Part shown: in pieces, positions 2,502-26,155 of the stretch
How positions within the stretch are numbered: position 1 is the first letter of the stretch
Layout of the letters: every line of letters begins with the position of its first letter
Assembly: GCF_001904655.1 (NCBI RefSeq)
Contig: NZ_MRCC01000025.1
Coordinates: 1 to 46,556, forward strand
Length of the DNA: 46,556 nucleotides
Source of the DNA: Chroogloeocystis siderophila 5.2 s.c.1
GTDB lineage: Bacteria > Cyanobacteriota > Cyanobacteriia > Cyanobacteriales > Chroococcidiopsidaceae
Direction of reading: 5' to 3'
Translations under genes and position numbers: made by a program
Notes under the pieces: model-generated
Told to the model about the DNA's origin: nothing
Databases searched by the model: none
What the model saw: the letters and a program-made list of their open reading frames with translations, nothing else

Positions 2502-3842
2502 ATGCAACCTTGGCTGATTATACTTTTACTAATTTCGGTCGCTTTTATTGTTTTTTCTACCACAAAGCTCAAGCTTCATCCATTTCTGGCTTTAATTTTT
2601 GCTGCTTTAGGTTTCGGCATTCTAGCAGGAATGCCATTAGATGAAGTTGTTGAATCAGTCTCTGATGGGTTTGGGAGAACACTGGGTTCAATCGGGATTG
2701 TGATTGTTGCTGGTATCATTCTGGGAACTTTCTTAGAAAAATCAGGTGGGGCGTTTACCTTAGCAGATAGCGTACTGAAGCTAACAAAAAGAAAGAATGT
2801 ACCGCTAGCAATGGCAATTATTGGTTACATTGTGGCAATTCCAGTATTTTGTGATTCGGGATTTGTGATTTTATCACCGTTAAATAAGGCATTGACCAAA
2901 AAAGCAGGAATGTCTTTAGCCGTGAGTGCGATCGCCCTAAGTCTAGGATTGTATGCAACACACACGATGGTACCACCAACCCCAGGACCAATCGCCGCTG
3001 CTGGATTACTCGAAGCTGATTTAGGACTAGTCATTGTTTGGGGATTAGCCGTTTCGATACCTGCTTTATTAATCGGTTGGCTATTTGCCTTAAGATTTGG
3101 TAGCCGTACGTATATTGATCCAGAACCAGAATTTAGCGAAGCAGAAATTAATCAAATTATGCAGGAAGGTCCTTCGGCAATCCAGGCTTTCTTACCAATT
3201 GCGATTCCAATTGTGCTGATCTTAGCTAAATCGATAGCCGATTACCCAACGAACCCGTTAGGTGAAGGGTTCTTACAAACTTTTGTGAGTTTTGTTGGCA
3301 CCCCTTTAATTGCTTTACTTATTGGCGTCCTCATTTCCTGGAGTTTGCCCAAAAAGTTTAATTGAGAACTGCTTTCGGATCGCGGTTGGGTAGGAAAAGC
3401 ATTACTCGACTCCGCAGCAATTATCTTGATTACAGGTGCTGGTGGTGCGTTTGGGAGAGTTTTGCAAAATTCTGGGATTGCTGAAGTGATTGGTAAGAAC
3501 TTAGCCGGAGGAAATTTAGGCATCTTTTTACCGTTTATCATTTCCTCTGGAATTAAAACTGCGCAAGGTTCTTCGACAGTTGCGATTGTGACAACAGCAA
3601 CATTGCTAGCACCGTTAGTCGGAGTTCTCAATCTCGATGCACCGATTGATCGAGCACTAACTGTAGTTGCGATCGGGGCTGGGGCGATGGTTGTATCGCA
3701 CGCTAATGACAGCTATTTTTGGGTGGTTTCGCAGTTTTCTCGGATGACGACTGAACAAGCATTCAAGCTGCAAACTTTGGGGACTTTGACTGAAGGCGTT
3801 GCCGCAGGAATTATTGTTTGGATTATTAGTCTTGTAACTTAA
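2502..3842 (+). pseudogene. GntP-family gluconate/organic acid permease interrupted by an in-frame TGA
   Basis: A multi-membrane-spanning protein of the GntP family (gluconate and related sugar-acid or hydroxy-acid:H+ symport). Residues 1-287 and 309-446 lie in the same frame and together give 446 residues, the normal length. They are separated only by a TGA at 3363-3365, between SWSLPKKFN and ELLSDRGWVGK. Nothing is missing on either side, so one substitution (for example CGA to TGA, arginine to stop) explains the break. An internal start at 3426 could make only the C-terminal third, which should not work alone. It may be a recent pseudogene, a sequencing error, or a readthrough case. The start at 2502 follows an AGGA-like element. 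The stretch at 2224-2501 upstream is AT-rich with no gene. Confidence 0.85.
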
Positions 3843-4079: not shown

Positions 4080-5453
4080 TTAGTCACTGCACATCGACGA
4101 TCCATCCTCGCGGTGACGACGCATAGAAGTGGGTGCAATTCCTGCGGCTTTACGGTATTTGGCAACTGTTCTACGAGCGATGGAAAGATGATAGCGAAGC
4201 TTTAAAAGTTGGACAAGTTGTTCGTCAGTGTAAGGCTGATCGGCAGATTCTTCCGCGACAGCTTGTAGGAGGAGTTGTTGAATTTGTTGGGGTGTACGTC
4301 CGCCTACAGACACTGGAACGCACAACGATGCTAAGGGAATTGTGCGATCGCGCGTTCCACACACGCGCAAATACCTACCACGTACAATTCTACTGACGGT
4401 GGCGTTACTCAATCCCACCGATTGCGCGACAATTTGTTGCGGTGTGGGAATTAAATCTAACGCATCTTGGCTATGTAAAAAAGCTTTTTGGCGTTCGACT
4501 AGAAACTGTCCGACTTTGAGCAAATTTTCTTGCCATTGATCGAGCGCTGTGAGTAAACTTTGCGCTTTTTGTAGCAGATTTTCTAAACGTTGTTTGTTTT
4601 GTGCTTTTGCTTGCGGTTGCTGTAACAAATGAATTGCTTCTTGATTAAGACAAAATCGCTGACGCGGTTGCGCGATTAAAGAAACTTGCCAAGTTTGATG
4701 GACTGTCAGTTCTGCTTGTAAATCAGGTGTGATAATGGGTGTATTGCTGTAACCAAAGTTTCTTGCAGGGCGCGGTTCTAAAGTTTGAATTTGCGCGATC
4801 GCCACTTGCAAATCTTTGTAAGTTATTTTAGTAGACAGTTGCAATGAACTGTTCAGTTGTTGCCGTAGTCTTTCACAATTCTCAATCGCCGTCGAAGAAT
4901 TACCAACACAATCGGCTAATTCTTCTAAGTAGTCGCAAATCAAGATTTTAGCAAGATCCTCTGTACAATCTTGAAGTTGTAATAGCAAACATTCGCGTAA
5001 CGAACGCGCGCCAATTCCTGGTGGATCGAGACTTTGCAGGATTGGTACGCATCTTTCTAGTTCTTGAGGACTCCAAGAAGTCCCTTTTGTCCAAGTTTCG
5101 GGAGTTTGTTCTAAGTATCCTGCACTCGATAACCACTGGGTAAGATAAATTAGTGCTTCGCGTTGCTGAGTTGAAATTGACAACGCGGCGATCTGTCCGT
5201 ATAAATGCTCTTGTATTGTTGAACTTGCGGCTTGGACATCGTACCACTGTGGTAAAACGTCGCTAATAAGCGAGTCGCGTTCTTCTGTCGGTGTTTCCAG
5301 TAAAAACGGGTTTTCCTTTGCTTCCGCTTGCAGATGTTTAATCACTTGGTTGCGATCGCAAGACAGCAAGCGCACGAGTTGCCGTAATGTAGGATAAAGA
5401 ACAGTATCCGTTTGCAAGCGCGTTGTCAGTGACTGGGTAGAACCAATAACCAT
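4080..5453 (-). CDS. rpoN: RNA polymerase sigma-54 factor
   Basis: 457 residues, a normal length for sigma-54. Three regions are visible. Region I near the N-terminus is diverged (LYPTLRQLVRLL where most members have MTPQLQQAIRLL) but ends in the usual NPFLLE. The core-binding domain has LDPPGIGARSLRECLLLQL and LEPRPARNF. The C-terminal DNA-binding domain has a helix-turn-helix (TPQQIVAQSVGLSNATVSRI) and an RpoN box ARRTVAKYR at residues 426-434, which reads the -24 element. Sigma-54 recruits core polymerase to -24/-12 promoters and needs an ATP-hydrolysing activator to melt DNA; such an activator is encoded 3 bases upstream. Three GCGATCGC octamers (4344, 4795, 5352) suggest long residence in a cyanobacterial genome. 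It is the last gene of the kinase-activator-rpoN operon. Confidence 0.95.
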   Translation of the reverse strand: MVIGSTQSLTTRLQTDTVLYPTLRQLVRLLSCDRNQVIKHLQAEAKENPFLLETPTEERDSLISDVLPQWYDVQAASSTIQEHLYGQIAALSISTQQREALIYLTQWLSSAGYLEQTPETWTKGTSWSPQELERCVPILQSLDPPGIGARSLRECLLLQLQDCTEDLAKILICDYLEELADCVGNSSTAIENCERLRQQLNSSLQLSTKITYKDLQVAIAQIQTLEPRPARNFGYSNTPIITPDLQAELTVHQTWQVSLIAQPRQRFCLNQEAIHLLQQPQAKAQNKQRLENLLQKAQSLLTALDQWQENLLKVGQFLVERQKAFLHSQDALDLIPTPQQIVAQSVGLSNATVSRIVRGRYLRVCGTRDRTIPLASLCVPVSVGGRTPQQIQQLLLQAVAEESADQPYTDEQLVQLLKLRYHLSIARRTVAKYRKAAGIAPTSMRRHREDGSSMCSD

Positions 5454-5456
5454 ACG

Positions 5457-6779
5457 CTATAAATTCCACTGCTGGCGTTTCTGAATAAACGTTTGCTGAT
5501 CCAAACCTAACGCTTTATGTGGTTCTTGCGGATCGAGGAGTAACGCGCGACGAATCAAATCTTGTTCGAGTTGCGCTACAGCTTGCGCTAAGTTGAGTTG
5601 AGGTTGCTCGTTTTGCGTAAAAATAAGATGTTCGGGTAAAATGGGTCGTCCGCCGGAAAGAACAGCGGCGCGTTCGAGAATGTTTTGTAACTCGCGGACG
5701 TTTCCTGGAAACGGATAACTTTGGAGTTTTTTCATTGCTGTTTCGGCAATCGCTAAACTCGGATACCCTTGCTTCAAGGCAATTCGACTTAAAAAATGTT
5801 GCGTGAGAAGATTGATATCTTCTATGCGATCGCGCAACGCAGGTAATTCTACTCGTACAACATTCAAGCGATAATACAAATCTTCACGAAATTGGTTACT
5901 ACGTACCATTTCTTCTAAGTTACGATTCGTTGCTGCTAAAATGCGCACATCTACTGTACGTGTTTGGTTACTTCCTAAGCGTTCAAATGAGCGATCTTGT
6001 AAAACACGCAATAATTTACTTTGAATCACTGGCGTTAGTTCGCCAATTTCATCTAAAAATAGAGTTCCGCCATTCGCTTGCTCAAAACGACCGATGCGCA
6101 GGTGATCTGCACCCGTAAACGCGCCTTTTTCGTGTCCAAACAATTCGGCTTCTAATAAATGTTCTGGAAGCGCTGCGCAATTAACTTTGACTAATGGTCC
6201 TTTACTACGCGAACTCGTCGTGTGAAGCATCGACGCGACCAATTCTTTACCTGTACCCGATTCGCCTAAAAGGATTACCGTAGAATCACCTTGAGCGATT
6301 CGACCAATGAGTTTAAAGACATTTTGCATCAACGGCGATCGCCCTAGCATTTCGTCGGCGTTTTGACTGAGCGTTTCAGCACTGATGCGGTAAACTGATG
6401 CTTGATGATGCGAAAGTGCTTTTTTGGTAAGCTCGACTAAAGTATCTAAATCAAATGGTTTGGTTAAATAATCGTAGGCACCTAACTGCATAGCTTCAAT
6501 CGCAGTCCGGCTTGTACCATACGCAGTCATTACAATTACAGGTAGCTCAAAGAGTATTTTGCCTAAGTTTTTTAATACGGTCATTCCCTGCGTGCGTGGC
6601 ATTTTTAAGTCGAGAAACACTAAGTCAAGGCGATCGCCTAGCGCAATACTATCTTTAATAATTTTTAATCCTTGGCTACCGTCTTTTGCTTCAATAATGG
6701 TGTGACCTTCATCTTGCAGTATTTGTGCCATCGCCTGACGCAACGGTTTTTCATCATCAATAATGAAAATTTTTGCCAT
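5457..6779 (-). CDS. NtrC-type sigma-54-dependent response regulator
   Basis: 440 residues from MAKIFIIDDE; an ATG six codons earlier exists, but this start fits the receiver fold. A CheY-like receiver (1-120, acidic pocket D8/D9, phospho-acceptor D57, K107) is followed by a AAA+ sigma-54 activation domain with Walker A GESGTGKE (172-179), the sigma-54-contacting loop GAFTGA (219-224) and Walker B GTLFLDEIGE. The C-terminus keeps a Fis-like segment (LEQDLIRRALLL...LGLDQQTFIQKRQQWNL), but the stretch between its two parts is shorter than in typical NtrC proteins, so DNA binding may be weak or altered. It overlaps the end of the kinase gene by 23 bases and stops 3 bases before rpoN, implying one transcript and coupled translation. 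The presumed role is to melt sigma-54 promoters when phosphorylated. Confidence 0.95.
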   Translation of the reverse strand: MAKIFIIDDEKPLRQAMAQILQDEGHTIIEAKDGSQGLKIIKDSIALGDRLDLVFLDLKMPRTQGMTVLKNLGKILFELPVIVMTAYGTSRTAIEAMQLGAYDYLTKPFDLDTLVELTKKALSHHQASVYRISAETLSQNADEMLGRSPLMQNVFKLIGRIAQGDSTVILLGESGTGKELVASMLHTTSSRSKGPLVKVNCAALPEHLLEAELFGHEKGAFTGADHLRIGRFEQANGGTLFLDEIGELTPVIQSKLLRVLQDRSFERLGSNQTRTVDVRILAATNRNLEEMVRSNQFREDLYYRLNVVRVELPALRDRIEDINLLTQHFLSRIALKQGYPSLAIAETAMKKLQSYPFPGNVRELQNILERAAVLSGGRPILPEHLIFTQNEQPQLNLAQAVAQLEQDLIRRALLLDPQEPHKALGLDQQTFIQKRQQWNL

Positions 6780-8259
6780 ATTGTGAATTAGTAACAAGTG
6801 CTACTTGGTCTAATGGTAAATACACACTAAACTTTGTCCAGCCAGGGCGCGACTGTAAATCGATATATCCTCCGTGATGCGTCACAATTTCATGGCTGAT
6901 TGCTAGTCCTAATCCAGTTCCATCAGCTTTAGTCGAGTAAAACGGGTCAAAAATTCGTTCTTGTTGTTCTGGCAGAATTCCGACACCGCGATCTTCTACC
7001 CATACAATTAAATATTTATCTTGTTGTTCTACTCCCACTTTGACTTCTCCAGACAGAAAACTCGCTTGAATCGCATTGAGAATTAAATTTAAGACAACTT
7101 GTTCAATGCCGCGACGTTGTAGTGAAATTTCTGGTAGTGGTTCGGGTGCGGGGAAATACGTTAAATCAATATTTTGTTGTTCCGCTTGGGGGCGCAGTAA
7201 GGAAACAGATTCAATCGCGATCGCTTCTAAGGAAACATTGACAAATTCTTCTTCTTGTTGGGTTTTATCGAAGTAAAGTAACCTTTTGACTAATGTTTCC
7301 AAGCGATCTACTTGCTCTAGTAAACTAGGAATTGGTAAATTGATAATATCTTGCTTGTGTAGCTGCCGCTTAACATATTGTAAATTGAGGCGCATACTGG
7401 CTAAAGGATTACGCACTTCATGCGCGACACCCGCAACAAGCTGTCCTAACGAAGCTAAGCGATCCATCCGTCGCAATCGCTGTTCTAACTCTTTACGACG
7501 CTGTTGCATTGTATTAATTGATGCTCCTACTTGTCCCATTTCAGCAGGAAGTGGCGGAATGAGATTGGCTTTACCTTGTTCAATTGCTTTAATACCTTGT
7601 TGTAATTGCAGTACCCCAGTGCGTAATTGTACTGTGATATAAACAGTCCACCCGACAACGCACAAGACCATCACGATCACCAGTGTCGTGAGGAGTTGCG
7701 ATCGCGCATCCGTCGATCGTGGAATCCGCTTCATCGTCCACACTGCGCCATCAAACGGCAAAGGATCGGCACGTAGGACAACAATATCGAGTTGCGGATA
7801 AAGTACCATTTCCTGTGGTAAGTGCTGCCGACTTGCACTTGCAACTAATTCCAAAATTTTGCCTTTTTCCGCAGGGGGAATATCGCGTTTAGGAACAGGT
7901 CCGCCGTGCGTAGGATATGCATAACCTAAGAGTTGATTCTCACTATAGATGTAAAAACCGCCTTCGACTCGCGGAAAGTCACTCAACGCTGCATATGATA
8001 ACTTCCAAAGATAGTTATCCCACTTCTTGCCGACAAGGATAGGGCTGCGACTGGGATTTCCTTCCCAAAAGTGTTGCATCAAGCGCGCATTCGCACGCGC
8101 TAACTCGCCTTGCGTTCGGGCTGCGATCGCACTTTCCCGACTATGAAATAACTCTGCTAATAGCCACAACGCCGCTCCACCCAAGCATAAAAATAGCGCG
8201 ATGAGAATTGTTAATTGTTGCTGAAGTGTCCAACGTTGCGGGACAATATTCTTTGTCAT
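6757..8259 (-). CDS. NtrB/AtoS-like membrane sensor histidine kinase
   Basis: 500 residues. One membrane helix near residues 15-35 and another near 187-210 flank a periplasmic sensor of about 150 residues with no family I recognise. A HAMP-like linker follows, then HisKA with phospho-acceptor H280 in AHEVRNPLASMRLNLQY, and HATPase_c with N box (LNLILNAIQAS), G1 (VEDRGVGI), F box (FDPFYSTK) and G2 (GTGLGLAIS). The H-box form and FYSTK are those of kinases that partner NtrC-type regulators, which agrees with the next gene. It heads the operon. The 198-base leader has no strong Shine-Dalgarno sequence and no -24/-12 promoter that I can find, so the operon is probably not sigma-54 autoregulated. 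Confidence 0.93.
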   Translation of the reverse strand: MTKNIVPQRWTLQQQLTILIALFLCLGGAALWLLAELFHSRESAIAARTQGELARANARLMQHFWEGNPSRSPILVGKKWDNYLWKLSYAALSDFPRVEGGFYIYSENQLLGYAYPTHGGPVPKRDIPPAEKGKILELVASASRQHLPQEMVLYPQLDIVVLRADPLPFDGAVWTMKRIPRSTDARSQLLTTLVIVMVLCVVGWTVYITVQLRTGVLQLQQGIKAIEQGKANLIPPLPAEMGQVGASINTMQQRRKELEQRLRRMDRLASLGQLVAGVAHEVRNPLASMRLNLQYVKRQLHKQDIINLPIPSLLEQVDRLETLVKRLLYFDKTQQEEEFVNVSLEAIAIESVSLLRPQAEQQNIDLTYFPAPEPLPEISLQRRGIEQVVLNLILNAIQASFLSGEVKVGVEQQDKYLIVWVEDRGVGILPEQQERIFDPFYSTKADGTGLGLAISHEIVTHHGGYIDLQSRPGWTKFSVYLPLDQVALVTNSQYGKNFHY

Positions 8260-12010: not shown

Positions 12011-12370
12011 TTATAAGGTTGGAGGCAGTGGCGGTGGTTCAACACCTTTGGGTGGCGGTGGTTCAACACCTTTGGGTGGCGGTGGTTCAACACCTTTGGG
12101 TGGCGGTGGTTCAACACCTTTGGGTGGCGGTGGTTCAACACCTTTGGGTGGCGGTGGTTCAACACCTTTGGGTGGTATAGTTGGTTGTCCCTTAACGCCT
12201 TTAGCTCCTTTTTGCTGAGCATAGAGCACTTCCGAGTTTGCCAAACCAAGTTCCGGCGTGGAGGTACGCACTGTTGCCGCAGCAGTTTCAGCAAGGAGAG
12301 GTGCAAGCGCAAGCGCGAAGAGCGCACCTGCTCCCCAACGGAGAATCAAAGTATGAGTAAATCGACTCAT
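12011..12370 (-). CDS. Small secreted proline-rich PPPPKGVE repeat protein
   Basis: 119 residues, no family recognised. The N-terminus is a good signal peptide: basic n-region MSRFTHTLILR, hydrophobic core GALFALALAPLLA and a cleavage region around AETAAA (residues 25-32). The mature part has a short linker (LYAQQKGAKGVKGQ), then six near-perfect copies of an 8-residue unit, PPPPKGVE, ending PPPLPPTL. A polyproline-II rod, one lysine and one glutamate per unit, is likely in the periplasm or at the surface. A clear Shine-Dalgarno (AAGGA, 9 bases before ATG) supports this frame and strand. Upstream lies a near-consensus sigma-54 promoter, making it the best candidate target of the rpoN operon. 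Function unknown; a wall spacer, adhesin or ligand-binding rod are guesses. Confidence 0.8.
   Translation of the reverse strand: MSRFTHTLILRWGAGALFALALAPLLAETAAATVRTSTPELGLANSEVLYAQQKGAKGVKGQPTIPPKGVEPPPPKGVEPPPPKGVEPPPPKGVEPPPPKGVEPPPPKGVEPPPLPPTL
12031..12174. repeat. 24-bp tandem repeat, six units
   Basis: Six essentially identical 24-base units begin at 12031, 12055, 12079, 12103, 12127 and 12151 (plus-strand unit GCGGTGGTTCAACACCTTTG followed by GGTG). The length is a multiple of 3, so copy-number change adds or removes whole PPPPKGVE units without shifting the frame. The near-identity of the units points to recent expansion or homogenisation. Confidence 0.95.
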
Positions 12371-12461
12371 GATGGGAGTCCTTCATTTGTCGTAAAGTAC
12401 AAATCCCTTTAGAACAAGCAAACTATCAGTTATGTAGTTTGGCTCTTTCTAGGGTTATGTG

Positions 12462-12485
12462 CGCAATTTAATTGCGATACGCAAT
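12462..12485 (-). promoter_or_regulatory. Three alternating CGCAAT half-sites at the predicted start of transcription
   Basis: Two overlapping perfect palindromes share a central arm: CGCAATT-T-AATTGCG at 12462-12476 and ATTGCG-ATA-CGCAAT at 12471-12485. They fall where transcription from the -24/-12 element would begin (about 12482), so a repressor or activator operator is a reasonable reading. The factor is unknown. Confidence 0.5.
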
Positions 12486-12492
12486 CTCTATG

Positions 12493-12508
12493 TGCAAAAA
12501 AGATGCCA
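12493..12508 (-). promoter_or_regulatory. Sigma-54 type -24/-12 promoter
   Basis: Read on the minus strand the sequence is TGGCATCTTTTTTGCA. GG and GC are separated by exactly 10 bases; the -24 part matches TGGCA(C/T), and the -12 part TTGCA is perfect. The predicted start is near 12482, giving a leader of about 110 bases to the repeat-protein ATG at 12370. It is in a non-coding spacer and correctly oriented, with an rpoN gene in the same block. A 6-bp inverted repeat (AAAATG-TTGAC-CATTTT) abuts its upstream side. Confidence 0.7.
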
Positions 12509-21117: not shown

Positions 21118-23343
21118 ATGATAAATATTTTAAATTGCGCTCAATCTCAGCCTGTGCAAAAGCAAAATAGTGACTTGATTTTAAAGCTGCTGATTGTAGA
21201 GGATGTGTTAGCAGATGTAGAGTTAATGGTACTCGCTCTAGAAACGGCAGAAATCAAATTTACTTACAATGCAGTTGATAACTTAAAGAATTGCGAACAA
21301 CTGCTACATTCAAAATCTTATGATGCGGTGCTAGCAGATTATCGTTTACCACAATTTACTGCTTATCAAGTATTAGAGTTATTGCAACAATCAGCACAAG
21401 AAATTCCGTTAATTTTGGTGACTGGTAGTTTGGGAGAAGAAGCAGCCGTTGATTGTATCAAGGCAGGAATGACAGATTATGTCTTGAAAGAACGATTGTT
21501 TCGCTTACCGATAGTTTTAAGGCGATCGCTTGAAGAATTTGCTTTACGTCGTCAACAAAAAGCCGCCATTGTTCGCATTCAAAAACAAGCACAACAGCAA
21601 GCAATTATCAACCGTATTGTGCAAGCAATGCGCGAAACTTTGATACTCGATGATGTCCTCAAATCTAGTGTTGATGCGCTACACGAAGCTTTAAAACCTA
21701 GCCGATGCTTCATTTCACAGCCGGATACTCAAAAAGAAATGTGGGTAAATCATGTCAGTACGGCAACAATAAATCGCGAAGATTGTATTGGTGTTAAATG
21801 TTTCGTTTACCCGTACTACAAAGAAGCATTTCAGCAAGGAAAAATTATCATTATTAATCGTAACGATCCTAGTGTACCGCTGGCATTACACGAATTATTC
21901 AATCAATGGAATTTAAATTCTGTTTTAATTGCACCTTTAGTGTATCAACAAACACTTCTCGGTGGAATTATTTTACAACAGTGCGATCGCGATCGCATTT
22001 GGAATGAAGACGAAATTTCTCTACTCCAAGCAATCAGCGGACAATGTGCGATCGCAATTCATCAAGCGGGTATATTTCATCAACTACAGCAACAAACGCA
22101 ACGGGAAAAAACACTCAATCAAATTTCGCGATCATTAAATTCTAGCCTCGATCCTAAATATATATTACAAGAAATCGTGCGCCTTACAGGCGAATGTTTC
22201 GCTGTTGATCATGTCATGATTTATGCTTTAGAACACGACCAAATTAAAATTATGCGCGAATGGCATTCTTCCGAAGAAATTGCTTCTTCGATTGGTTGCA
22301 CAACGCCTTTATCCGAGTGGATGACAAGTTTCGAATTCTCGCCGTATCAAGTTTTTTATGCGCCGCACTTGGAAAAAATATGTCTGCCATCAAAAGCAGT
22401 AGAAATCGTCAAAACTGTTCCGCATCTAACAGTATTAAGCGTACCTATTTTTATTAGAGATAAGTTTTTTGGTGGCTTGGTGTTACATACAATTACGCGC
22501 GTTCAAGTATTTAGCGATGAGGAGATTAATTTAGTTCAAAGAATTGCAGATAAAGCAGCGATCGCCTTGTATAATGCCCAAAGCTATGAACTTCTCGAAG
22601 AGTTGGTAAAAAAACGAACTCAAGAGCTAGAAGCAGAAAAATTACTTTCTGATGCTGCCAATCGAGCCAAAAGTGAATTTTTAAGCAATATGAGTCATGA
22701 GTTACGCACGCCACTTACAGGAATTTTAGGTTTTTCTAATATTTTAATTGAAGAAATTTTTGGCGAGTTAAATGCTAAACAGAAACAATATATTCAAGGT
22801 ATCCAAACTTGTGGTAAGCATCTACTCGAACTAATTAATGACCTTCTCGATTTAACCAAGATTGAAGCAGGTAAAGAAGAATTAATTTTAGAAGATATAC
22901 AAGTTATAACAGTTTGTCAAGAATGTTTAGCTTTATTTGATAAAAACCAATCATCAAAACTACAACTCAAGTTTGCGATCGCATCAGATGTCACAACTTG
23001 CGTAGCCGATCACCGACGCCTCAAACAAATTTTAGTAAACTTATTATCCAATGCTTTTAAATTCACAGAAATAGGTTCAGTGACGCTCAAAATTGAACAG
23101 ACGGAAGCAACAATTTTGTTTTCTGTGATTGATACAGGAATTGGAATTTCTGCGGCGGATCAAGCAATTTTGTTTCAGCCGTTTCAACAGCTAGATAGCG
23201 GGCTTGATCGTAAATATGAAGGTACAGGTTTAGGTTTAGCACTCTCACGTAAGTTAGCACGGCTGCATGGTGGAGATATTATTGTGAAGTCGCAGCTTGG
23301 AAGCGGTAGTTGCTTTACCTTAATTTTGCCACGCTCCCTATAG
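21118..23343 (+). CDS. Receiver-GAF-GAF histidine kinase
   Basis: 741 residues, soluble. An N-terminal receiver (about 22-145; LLIVEDVLADVELM, acceptor aspartate in VLADYRLPQFTAY) leads through a coiled region to two GAF domains (about 165-325 and 340-495), then HisKA with H527 (NMSHELRTPLTGILGF) and HATPase_c (LVNLLSNAFKFT, DTGIGIS, GTGLGLALS). GAF1 lacks the conserved cysteine context I would need to call a bilin-binding domain. The second GAF-HisKA-HATPase part is strongly similar to the next gene's, indicating tandem duplication with different N-terminal modules. ATG 21118 is 4 bases after the broken receiver gene. Confidence 0.92.
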   Translation: MINILNCAQSQPVQKQNSDLILKLLIVEDVLADVELMVLALETAEIKFTYNAVDNLKNCEQLLHSKSYDAVLADYRLPQFTAYQVLELLQQSAQEIPLILVTGSLGEEAAVDCIKAGMTDYVLKERLFRLPIVLRRSLEEFALRRQQKAAIVRIQKQAQQQAIINRIVQAMRETLILDDVLKSSVDALHEALKPSRCFISQPDTQKEMWVNHVSTATINREDCIGVKCFVYPYYKEAFQQGKIIIINRNDPSVPLALHELFNQWNLNSVLIAPLVYQQTLLGGIILQQCDRDRIWNEDEISLLQAISGQCAIAIHQAGIFHQLQQQTQREKTLNQISRSLNSSLDPKYILQEIVRLTGECFAVDHVMIYALEHDQIKIMREWHSSEEIASSIGCTTPLSEWMTSFEFSPYQVFYAPHLEKICLPSKAVEIVKTVPHLTVLSVPIFIRDKFFGGLVLHTITRVQVFSDEEINLVQRIADKAAIALYNAQSYELLEELVKKRTQELEAEKLLSDAANRAKSEFLSNMSHELRTPLTGILGFSNILIEEIFGELNAKQKQYIQGIQTCGKHLLELINDLLDLTKIEAGKEELILEDIQVITVCQECLALFDKNQSSKLQLKFAIASDVTTCVADHRRLKQILVNLLSNAFKFTEIGSVTLKIEQTEATILFSVIDTGIGISAADQAILFQPFQQLDSGLDRKYEGTGLGLALSRKLARLHGGDIIVKSQLGSGSCFTLILPRSL

Positions 23344-23380
23344 ACAAACAAATTAAGGTGAAATCGCCGCCTAGGGAGCA

Positions 23381-26155
23381 ATGGAGATCATGACTACAAC
23401 AAATCACCGTGGTTCGAGTATTTCTAGAGCGCTCTTGAGATCGCATCAACGCATACCAAAGCCGCTGCGCTATTTAGGGCTGCTCGAAGCCTACTTGATT
23501 GTCTGGGCGATACTCGATCAAGTCGCATTGCTGTTTGCCACCGCACCTGAAACTTTTGTGTGGTATCCACCTGTAGGGCTAGACGTAACGCTACTTTTCG
23601 TATTTGGGTTGCGCTATGTTCCTGCATTATTTCTCAATACATTCGTACACGAATATCTCATCACTAACTCTGATTTAGGCTTAACTTCACTGCTCATTTT
23701 TGGCTTGATCTCGACGGTTGGTTACGGTGGAGTGTCTGCATTATTGCTACGCAAAATTAAAATCAATCCGCGCTTACGCACATTACGTGATGTGATGTGG
23801 TTTGTTGTCGTGATGACACTATTCACGCCTTTACTCGTCGCCGCCTTACAAACATTCATCATTGTTTTACAAGGAATGATTCCTTTATCAACTTGGTTAG
23901 TATATACATTACACTCGTGGGCGGGAGCCGCAACGGGAATTGCGATGCTTGCACCTTTTTTGTTAGTTTTGCTCCGCCAACTACCTTGGGTTTGGGCTTA
24001 CAAAGAGCAAGAAGTACCAGTATCCGAGCCACCATTAATTCCTTTAGTAGCAAAACAACGCCCAGAACTTATTTTAGAAATTACCGCTTTATGCGTTGCC
24101 ATTTGGGCAGCGTATGGAGCGCAGCGTGGAGAAAGTTTAAATTACAGCTATTTTGTTTTTTTACCATTGATTTGGATTGCAATTCAGCATGGTTTTGAAA
24201 GAGCAACAGCAGCAGTATTGTTTATCAATATTGGCGTGGCAATTTTTGTGCAAGCAAAGCTGGGGGGTTCTAATGTCTTTGCATTGCAGTTTGGCATGAT
24301 GGCAATTTCACTAACCGGTATTTTATTAGGTGGCTTTGCAACACAAAGGAAGCAAGCAGAAACAGAACTCAATTATTTGGCGCAACGATTGAAAATTTTG
24401 CACGAACTTGATCGCGCAATTTTGATGACGCGATCGCTCAGTGAAATTGCCGCAGCAGTCGTCACACAAGTTGCTCAAATGATACCTTGCACGTGGATTA
24501 GTCTTGTGATTTTTGACTTGGAAAAAAGCGAGTTTATCCTTTTAGCTATCCATACTGGGCGAGAAACTCAAGCGCCAGGAATCCGCTTACCGCTGACAGC
24601 TTTTGGAGACATTGAACCGTTACAGCGCGGTGAGGTGATTGTCATTCAAGAAACTCGCACGACACAAATGCCTGCCGGTGCAGAACTTTTGCTCGGAAAT
24701 CAGGTACGCGCGTATATTAATATTCCTTTGATTGCGCAAGGAGAATTAATCGGTTCGCTCAATATTGCCAAAGACACTTTAGGCGCTTTTCCTCGTCAAT
24801 TGAGAACAGTCGCCGAACAAGTTGCGCGTACAGTCGCGATTGCTATCCAACAAGCCCGACTTTTCGAGCAAATTGAACGCCAAGCACTGCACGAGCGATC
24901 GCTCAATCAAATCAGTCGTATCCTCAATTCAAGCCTCGATCCGCAAGCGGTTTTGTGTCAAATTGTGCAACTAACAGGAGAATGTTTTGCAGTCGATCGC
25001 GTTGTAATTTTCGCTTTTAATAACAGACAAATTCAAGTACTCAATGAGTGGCGATCGCACGCAGAAGTTGTCTCTATGCAAGATTTTACCGCACCAATTG
25101 CCGATTGGCCTGACTTACTCGACCCTGATTCCGATTTTTTTTGCCATCATTTTTTTCATGCGCCAGATTATGCTCAAGTTCCCATGACGCCAACACGTCT
25201 ACGGCAAATCGAATATGCGCAAACGCTTTCTGTACTAAGTGTGCCAATTTTTGTCCGCGATCAGTTATTTGGGGGTTTATCGCTACAGACAACGACAACG
25301 TACCGTACTTTTACCGCCGAAGAAATTAGCTTATTACAGCGAATTTCTGAACAAGCAGCGATCGCACTTTACAATGCCCGTAGCTATGAATCTTTAGAAG
25401 AAATTGTGCAGCAGCGTACCCAAGAACTAGAACAGGAAAAACAACTATCAGAAGCCGCTAACCGCGCTAAGACTGAATTTTTAAGTAACATAAGTCACGA
25501 ATTGCGTACACCGCTGACAGGAATTCTCGGTTTTTCTAGCATTTTGCTCGAACAAGTTTTTGGGACATTAAATGCTAAACAAACACAGTATCTAGAATTA
25601 ATTTTATCGGCGGGCAAGCATTTACTCGATCTTATTAATGATTTATTAGATTTAACTAAAATTGAAGCCGCAAAAGAAGAATTATTAATTGAACCAGTTG
25701 TCGTGGTAGAAATAGCAAATGCTTGTATATCGCTGTTGCAAGAACGTGCTCAAGTAAAAGGATTACACCTCGAATTACAAATTGCACCAAATGTTACTGA
25801 ATGTATGGCAGATAAGCGTCGGTTAAAGCAAATTTTAGTCAATCTTTTAGCAAATGCAATCAAATTTACTGAATCAGGTTCAGTCACTTTAGACATTACA
25901 CAAACATCAACCAAAATTCAATTTTCTGTGATTGATACAGGTATTGGAATTTCTCAAAAAGATTTAGCCAAATTATTTCAACCTTTTCAGCAGTTAGATA
26001 GTGGCTTAGATCGTAAGTATGAAGGTACAGGCTTAGGTTTAGCTTTATCACGTAAACTTGCACAACTTCATGGCGGCGATCTTACCGTAGAGTCAGAATT
26101 AGGGCGCGGTAGTCGCTTTACACTGCATTTACCCTTGAGAGTGGGTAATTGGTAA
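23381..26155 (+). CDS. MASE1 membrane-sensor GAF-GAF histidine kinase
   Basis: 924 residues; ATG 23381, with an alternative ATG at 23390 closer to a GGAG. The N-terminal 330 residues contain about eight hydrophobic helices with the MASE1 pattern (VWYPPVGLDVTLLFVFG, WAGAATGIAMLAPFL, FVFLPLIWIAIQHG). Two GAF domains (about 340-490 and 515-670) follow, then HisKA with H706 (NISHELRTPLTGILGF) and HATPase_c (DTGIGIS, GTGLGLALSRKLAQLHGGD). From GAF2 onward it is a close paralogue of the preceding kinase (shared NRAK-EFLSN, LINDLLDLTKIEA, FQQLDSGLDRKYEGTG). Only 37 bases separate them, so they are probably co-transcribed. Ligand unknown. Confidence 0.92.
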   Translation: MEIMTTTNHRGSSISRALLRSHQRIPKPLRYLGLLEAYLIVWAILDQVALLFATAPETFVWYPPVGLDVTLLFVFGLRYVPALFLNTFVHEYLITNSDLGLTSLLIFGLISTVGYGGVSALLLRKIKINPRLRTLRDVMWFVVVMTLFTPLLVAALQTFIIVLQGMIPLSTWLVYTLHSWAGAATGIAMLAPFLLVLLRQLPWVWAYKEQEVPVSEPPLIPLVAKQRPELILEITALCVAIWAAYGAQRGESLNYSYFVFLPLIWIAIQHGFERATAAVLFINIGVAIFVQAKLGGSNVFALQFGMMAISLTGILLGGFATQRKQAETELNYLAQRLKILHELDRAILMTRSLSEIAAAVVTQVAQMIPCTWISLVIFDLEKSEFILLAIHTGRETQAPGIRLPLTAFGDIEPLQRGEVIVIQETRTTQMPAGAELLLGNQVRAYINIPLIAQGELIGSLNIAKDTLGAFPRQLRTVAEQVARTVAIAIQQARLFEQIERQALHERSLNQISRILNSSLDPQAVLCQIVQLTGECFAVDRVVIFAFNNRQIQVLNEWRSHAEVVSMQDFTAPIADWPDLLDPDSDFFCHHFFHAPDYAQVPMTPTRLRQIEYAQTLSVLSVPIFVRDQLFGGLSLQTTTTYRTFTAEEISLLQRISEQAAIALYNARSYESLEEIVQQRTQELEQEKQLSEAANRAKTEFLSNISHELRTPLTGILGFSSILLEQVFGTLNAKQTQYLELILSAGKHLLDLINDLLDLTKIEAAKEELLIEPVVVVEIANACISLLQERAQVKGLHLELQIAPNVTECMADKRRLKQILVNLLANAIKFTESGSVTLDITQTSTKIQFSVIDTGIGISQKDLAKLFQPFQQLDSGLDRKYEGTGLGLALSRKLAQLHGGDLTVESELGRGSRFTLHLPLRVGNW

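Follow-up and report, generated by a model that had tools for sequence, protein, structure and literature searches.

The stretch of DNA analysed here (the window) is the entire 46,556-nucleotide contig NZ_MRCC01000025.1 of the cyanobacterium Chroogloeocystis siderophila 5.2 s.c.1, whose genome measures 5.0 Mb and is 99.8% complete. Between positions 4080 and 8259, it carries three minus-strand genes of a sigma-54 regulatory module, encoding a membrane sensor histidine kinase (6757-8259; 500 amino acids, aa), a sigma-54 activator (5457-6779; 440 aa from its ATG) and the sigma factor RpoN itself (4080-5453; 457 aa). A preliminary description of this DNA had the genes overlapping by 23 bases or spaced by 3, and so they are: reading the activator from its ATG gives it a 23-base overlap with the kinase, and 3 bases separate activator and rpoN. 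More specifically, the activator open reading frame (ORF; 5457-6797) yields 446 aa from a TTG, and the ATG at 6779 is the start in most relatives.

All three sigma-54 domains exceed their Pfam cut-offs in the 457-residue protein, namely the activator-interacting PF00309 (31.0 bits; cut-off, 23.8), the core-binding PF04963 (127.9 bits; 22.9) and the DNA-binding PF04552 (101.9 bits; 22.8), and the protein bears the RpoN box ARRTVAKYR (aa 426-434; 4152-4178, minus strand), confirming the identity first proposed for it. Identity to 23 further sequences from cyanobacteria ranges over 52-96%, and all 24 rows of the alignment share box residues R427, R428, T429, K432, Y433 and R434. The structure modelled for RpoN by AlphaFold2 from the single sequence was too poor for use (mean predicted local distance difference test score, 37.7). 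The activator comprises a receiver (PF00072) and an AAA+ domain (PF00158), both over cut-off, followed by the lid and a 40-odd-residue tail (5460-5591, minus strand). The features previously attributed to it are all present on the minus strand, i.e., the receiver motif containing D57 (6600-6623), the Walker A motif GESGTGKE (6243-6266) and the GAFTGA sigma-54 contact loop (6108-6125), and the three motifs are kept in all 23 aligned activators, this one included; neither the RpoN box nor GAFTGA has been lost among these relatives. Among NCBIfam models, AtoC and then NtrC score best on the activator, with no curated cut-off reached, and the protein is ~43% identical to ZraR. In the kinase, PF00512 and PF02518 exceed their cut-offs, and a motif search found the H-box VAGVAHEVRNPL (7402-7437, minus strand) as well as N and G boxes. 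The preliminary description rightly took it for a sensor histidine kinase; the label "NtrB-like" was loose, as AtoS and then ZraS are the best-scoring NCBIfam models, again with no curated cut-off reached. We located one sigma-54 in this genome and one strong PF00158 match (243.7 bits); the other seven matches are weak (at most 53 bits) and lie in long frames that presumably belong to Clp-type AAA proteins.

Searching cyanobacterial genomes with the sigma-54 profiles, in phylum, class, order and family samples that overlap, we found full-length rpoN of this clade in 24 genomes, that of the window included (G743 and Nostoc linckia z4 being counted once). Clear matches in the phylum (386 genomes) and class (388 genomes) samples were confined to the window genome and G142. 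In the order sample, 9 of 388 genomes exceeded the PF04963 cut-off and eight were taken as real, one of these being truncated (G654); G534, with 29 bits within a 1212-residue frame, was set aside. PF04552 was over cut-off in 4/19 genomes of the window's GTDB family (this one included), and the family of G643 gave matches in 24 of 217 genomes, i.e., 19 with full-length, four with decayed and one with divergent rpoN (G721). The last of these, ~30% identical and from a Nostocaceae assembly (L086), was excluded from the counts as divergent, being either a contaminant or a separate acquisition; weak PF04552 matches in small genomes (another family and class) were likewise set aside as partial and near cut-off. 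The decayed copies belong to G142, G654, G749 and G765, and among genomes without sigma-54, G013 (L207) holds a 24-residue RpoN-box relic and G015 (L205) a consensus -24/-12 site beside an MFS fragment. The distribution is thus sparse and patchy, with loss on several occasions, and in this sampling it is limited to three families of one order.

The three-gene order is conserved, in that 21 of the 24 genomes have kinase, activator and rpoN side by side on a single strand; one ORF lies between the module genes in G754, the kinase of G750 stands beside the OB-fold gene ~125 kb off, and neither kinase nor activator is present on the 9 kb rpoN contig of G789. Across 28 loci, recurrent neighbours are a membrane protein gene divergent from the kinase (20 loci), called OB-fold-like from a match below the Pfam cut-off, an MFS transporter (21) and a CitMHS/ArsB-type anion transporter (16). 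Ratios of nonsynonymous to synonymous substitution rates (dN/dS) between G000 and G012 were 0.185 for rpoN, 0.085 for the activator and 0.109 for the kinase, relative to 0.071 for the neighbouring yifB, indicating that the module genes are kept by selection, rpoN a little less tightly.

To score -24/-12 promoters, we used a matrix built from the general sigma-54 consensus and fixed before the scan, counting sites at a score of at least 14 (maximum, 18.7). Such sites lie upstream of the OB-fold gene in 20/20 loci, of the MFS gene in 15/21, of the kinase in 9/24 and of the anion transporter in 3/16, as compared with 2 of 276 for the remaining ORFs of these regions. A near-consensus site, usually TGGCACGATTTTTGCA, precedes some recurrent gene in all 24 genomes (that of G708 was located by hand, the scripted ORF start lying upstream of it), and an anion transporter gene often follows the MFS gene behind the matching promoter. 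Sites were further found at YdcZ-type exporter genes in three genomes and at a gene for a small secreted protein in three others. Genome-wide, the pattern TGGCAYNNNTTTTGCW occurs 110 times in 20 sigma-54 genomes (~160 Mb) and 64 times in 23 genomes taken as sigma-54-free (~163.5 Mb), a surplus of two or three per genome that points to a small regulon. Because TGGCAYNNNTTTTGCW was picked after sites had been seen, the gene-level comparison (20/20 and 15/21 versus 2/276) is the better test. A backward-read control for the TGGCAYNNNTTTTGCW counts was dropped, its CG content being different. Ten of the 110 TGGCAYNNNTTTTGCW sites (six in G791, two in G641 and two in G802) were left aside. Among the 112 sites that were read, one (L192) duplicates a site already in L069, and 46 fall within ORFs of at least 150 aa. 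A second cluster was seen away from rpoN on contig C175 of G016 (L144), with two MFS genes, a CitMHS transporter gene, OB-fold genes and -24/-12 sites.

The clearest candidate target in the window (12011-12508) lies outside the module. One of the two TGGCAYNNNTTTTGCW matches of the whole genome is the promoter-like site TGGCATCTTTTTTGCA (12493-12508, minus strand), where the rate in sigma-54-free genomes predicts ~0.02 sites by chance for a stretch of this size. The gene beginning 122 bases downstream (12011-12370, minus strand) would encode a secreted-looking protein of 119 aa, with a signal-like N-terminus, PPPKGVE repeats and no Pfam match. Site and secreted repeat protein are kept in all three species of the genus; the site is kept in G011, G012 and G708, and in G708 the homologous gene comes immediately after rpoN, preceded by a site of its own. 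Just upstream of the gene, at 12370-12420 (minus strand), a leader element of 18 bases, GTACTTTACGACAAATG(A), is likewise kept in G011, G012 and the distant G708. The repeats are encoded by a 24-base tandem repeat (12028-12171; PPPKGVEP), within which two overlapping ARAGORN calls of tRNA-Pro (12040-12177) are most likely false.

Among the best plasmid matches listed for the activator are proteobacterial loci with the same gene set, on plasmids of Methylocystis, Caballeronia, Bradyrhizobium and Paraburkholderia, and partially in Acidiphilium. These cassettes share with the cyanobacterial loci homologous kinase, activator, OB-fold, MFS and anion transporter genes, in some cases YdcZ, and the same -24/-12 site at the OB-fold gene; they differ in that their activator has a full Fis-type helix-turn-helix. 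In six loci (L216-L221), chosen by hand from 20 matches listed, kinase and activator are present in 6/6, as is an OB-fold homologue preceded at a distance of 31-49 bases by a -24/-12 site; MFS and anion/arsenic transporters are present in 5/6 and YdcZ in 4/6, and rpoN is annotated in none of the stretches read. MFS proteins are 50-53% identical to those of Methylocystis and Bradyrhizobium and 34-39% to those of Burkholderiales; the corresponding values are 43-45% and 24-27% for the anion transporter. Identities reach 50-54% for YdcZ (full-length matches), 40-46% for the activator, 26-32% for the kinase and 25-39% for the OB-fold protein, the window's own activator and kinase being 40-42% and 27-29% identical to their cassette homologues. 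Nostocaceae loci combine -24/-12 sites with genes for the OB-fold protein, the MFS transporter and the anion transporter; the window's genus does not. Other cyanobacterial proteins that lack OB repeats share the N-terminal portion of the OB-fold protein (L222-L229), which suggests that a domain was gained after transfer.

In trees of rpoN, activator and kinase, the cyanobacterial sequences join with 100/100 support each, and the trees largely agree. G016, of the window's family, groups in all three trees with Nostocaceae that are free of the DNA-binding domain, and G708, a member of the Nostocaceae, stands apart from the others of that family and next to the window's genus in the activator tree. 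These placements suggest either transfer between cyanobacteria or an old duplication followed by loss. No rpoN donor was found with the outgroups used, i.e., four plasmid genes joined by a very long branch.

The C-terminal end of the activator bears on how the system would operate. In 12 of the 23 aligned activators, that of the window among them, the protein ends in ~40 residues that can be aligned to the Fis-type helix-turn-helix of the proteobacterial homologues but are missing the NRTEAARRLGI stretch present in the six of these; the remaining 11 stop just past the AAA+ lid or bear a short unrelated tail (G753). The protein thus fits type Ic, without a DNA-binding domain, rather than type Ia (PMC3162934). 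Because the helix-turn-helix is eroded or absent, and because the single genome searched held one good activator candidate, the activator probably acts from solution without an enhancer. Where a cell has a single activator, sequence-specific DNA binding may be dispensable. Alternatively, the activator could still bind DNA via an altered tail, in which case the system would be an ordinary enhancer-dependent one. The retention in 12/23 relatives of a tail ending in an ALG..(S/T)F.QK..QWNL-like sequence, odd for a functionless segment, speaks for this; we nevertheless consider it rather doubtful, as the two tails searched gave no Pfam match, HTH_8 included, at E-values up to 10, the first helix of the helix-turn-helix is absent relative to the six proteobacterial homologues, and 11/23 relatives are tailless even though they keep the same promoters.

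Could the module come from another bacterium through contamination or misassembly? The usual description of the phylum as devoid of sigma-54 (PMC3162934, PMC11119718) would favour this. However, HIP1 octamers number 63 in the window versus 0.78 expected in shuffles, three of them lying inside rpoN (positions 4344, 4795 and 5352), as had been pointed out from the start, and six more in the kinase and activator genes. G011, where the contig measures 5.4 Mb, and G012 carry the same module among the same neighbouring genes, and it is also present on chromosome-scale contigs of G684, G750, G753, G754 and G802. Contamination is therefore extremely improbable. A second alternative, which we regard as unlikely, is that of a fading acquisition, selected in some strains and functionless in the window's genus, where the usual targets are gone. 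The repeated losses, including the four decayed rpoN copies, the relic in G013 and the stranded site in G015, accord with such a history, as does the missing MFS and full OB-fold genes of the genus; against it, all three module genes are open with dN/dS of 0.09-0.19 (G000 versus G012), and the site and its secreted repeat protein persist in all three species. It is more improbable still that the main target in the genus is the neighbouring gntP permease gene, via the weak site GGGGGTAGTTATTGCA (~2380-2395). Here, GG and GC are correctly spaced, and G011 retains the site and G012 nearly does, but its matrix score of 7.3 out of 18.7 is far off consensus and gntP is broken by a frameshift in this genome. 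More specifically, gntP (2502-3842, plus strand) reads in two frames of 287 and 138 aa here and as a single 446-aa frame in G011 and in G012; the split is either a real frameshift or an assembly error. Elsewhere in the window, two adjoining long genes (21118-26155, plus strand) share ~300-base repeats that are 71-73% identical, and are probably tandem duplicates.

Sigma-54 was reported absent from all 29 cyanobacteria considered in 2011 (PMC3162934), the cyanobacteria analysed in a 2024 study have sigma-70 genes only (PMC11119718), and work on hydrogen sensors treated the lack of sigma-54 in cyanobacteria as a barrier (PMC10073562). The view taken in the preliminary description, that cyanobacteria use only sigma-70-family factors, thus stands as the general description in print; it does not hold without exception, since one sentence published in 2025 names rpoN in Gloeocapsa sp. 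PCC 7428 and Leptolyngbya sp. O-77 (PMC12316311), in the available text without mention of module, targets, distribution or origin. In the available part of PMC7261140, rpoN appears solely in the reference list. We found neither the module nor its targets, its activator or the proposed enhancer-independence in the literature searched, which was covered in passages and mostly excluded subscription journals and preprints. Known systems offer partial parallels. Like the cyanobacterial module, Chlamydia CtcB-CtcC-RpoN has one activator per sigma-54, devoid of a DNA-binding domain, with Helicobacter FlgR as a second such activator (PMC3162934, PMC7482065); the three cyanobacterial genes sit together, and their candidate targets are transport and envelope genes. 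In E. coli, ZraSR is likewise a kinase-activator pair divergent from an envelope-protein gene, zraP, with RpoN binding in the spacer (PMC8743547), but rpoN is located separately and, in the comparison made, no relationship between the envelope proteins was apparent. New here are a two-component sigma-54 cassette carrying its own sigma factor, its targets and the eroded DNA-binding domain of its activator.

Our data support a self-contained sigma-54 module, kinase-activator-rpoN with its own promoters, derived from a cassette that occurs on plasmids of proteobacteria as well, a reading to which we assign a probability of about 0.82. Judging from protein families, the membrane kinase would sense an envelope signal and phosphorylate D57 of the activator, whose AAA+ ring would contact sigma-54 through GAFTGA to bring about open complexes at a handful of -24/-12 promoters. 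Predicted targets are the OB-fold-like membrane protein, the MFS transporter and often the kinase operon itself, and, in the window's genus and G708, the secreted Pro-rich protein. Kinase, activator, OB-fold protein, MFS and anion transporters and the YdcZ exporter would descend from the cassette shared with proteobacterial plasmids, and the presence of rpoN in the operon of the cyanobacterial line would open sigma-54 control to hosts that otherwise lack it.

Several observations weigh against this interpretation. RpoN scores 231.8 bits on the NCBIfam model TIGR02395, below its cut-off of 277.35, with 434/434 positions aligned, up to 446, and its best plasmid match is 30% identical; since the Pfam domains and the RpoN box place the protein in the family, we read the TIGR02395 shortfall as divergence. 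The hand selection of the cassettes counts here too, as does a seventh match, in Aquisphaera, which lacks such a gene set. The looser pattern TGGCAYRNNNNTTGCW is not enriched (8, 12, 3 and 16 sites in family members with sigma-54; 9, 16, 11, 12, 6 and 14 in those without). In the window's genus, we found no MFS transporter and, apart from N-terminal matches, no full OB-fold gene; therefore, its wiring differs from that in Nostocaceae and its regulon rests on one site, which in the window has a C at the consensus R position. On balance, the module is real and conserved, and it probably works in cells; the claim of a self-contained and old system is borne out by the gene order, dN/dS values well below 1, the kept promoters and its presence in many genomes, some at chromosome scale.

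The genes and their adjacency, the promoters, the eroded DNA-binding domain and the homology to the proteobacterial cassette are all read from sequence, from which we infer the direction of transfer, the signal, enhancer-independence and activity. Taken further, and with about even odds of being right, the module may represent a portable sigma-54 regulon, i.e., a unit of sigma factor and enhancer-free activator that moves between lineages and installs sigma-54 in a phylum otherwise reliant on sigma-70, with spread and repeated loss among cyanobacteria and, in this genus, rewiring to a new secreted repeat protein. Cyanobacterial RNA polymerase has a split beta-prime subunit, and a native, compact module with candidate promoters allows sigma-54 function with this polymerase to be tested. 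The module bears on how genomes acquire sigma factors of a new class and on whether a sole activator can lose enhancer binding, and it may find use as an orthogonal expression tool.

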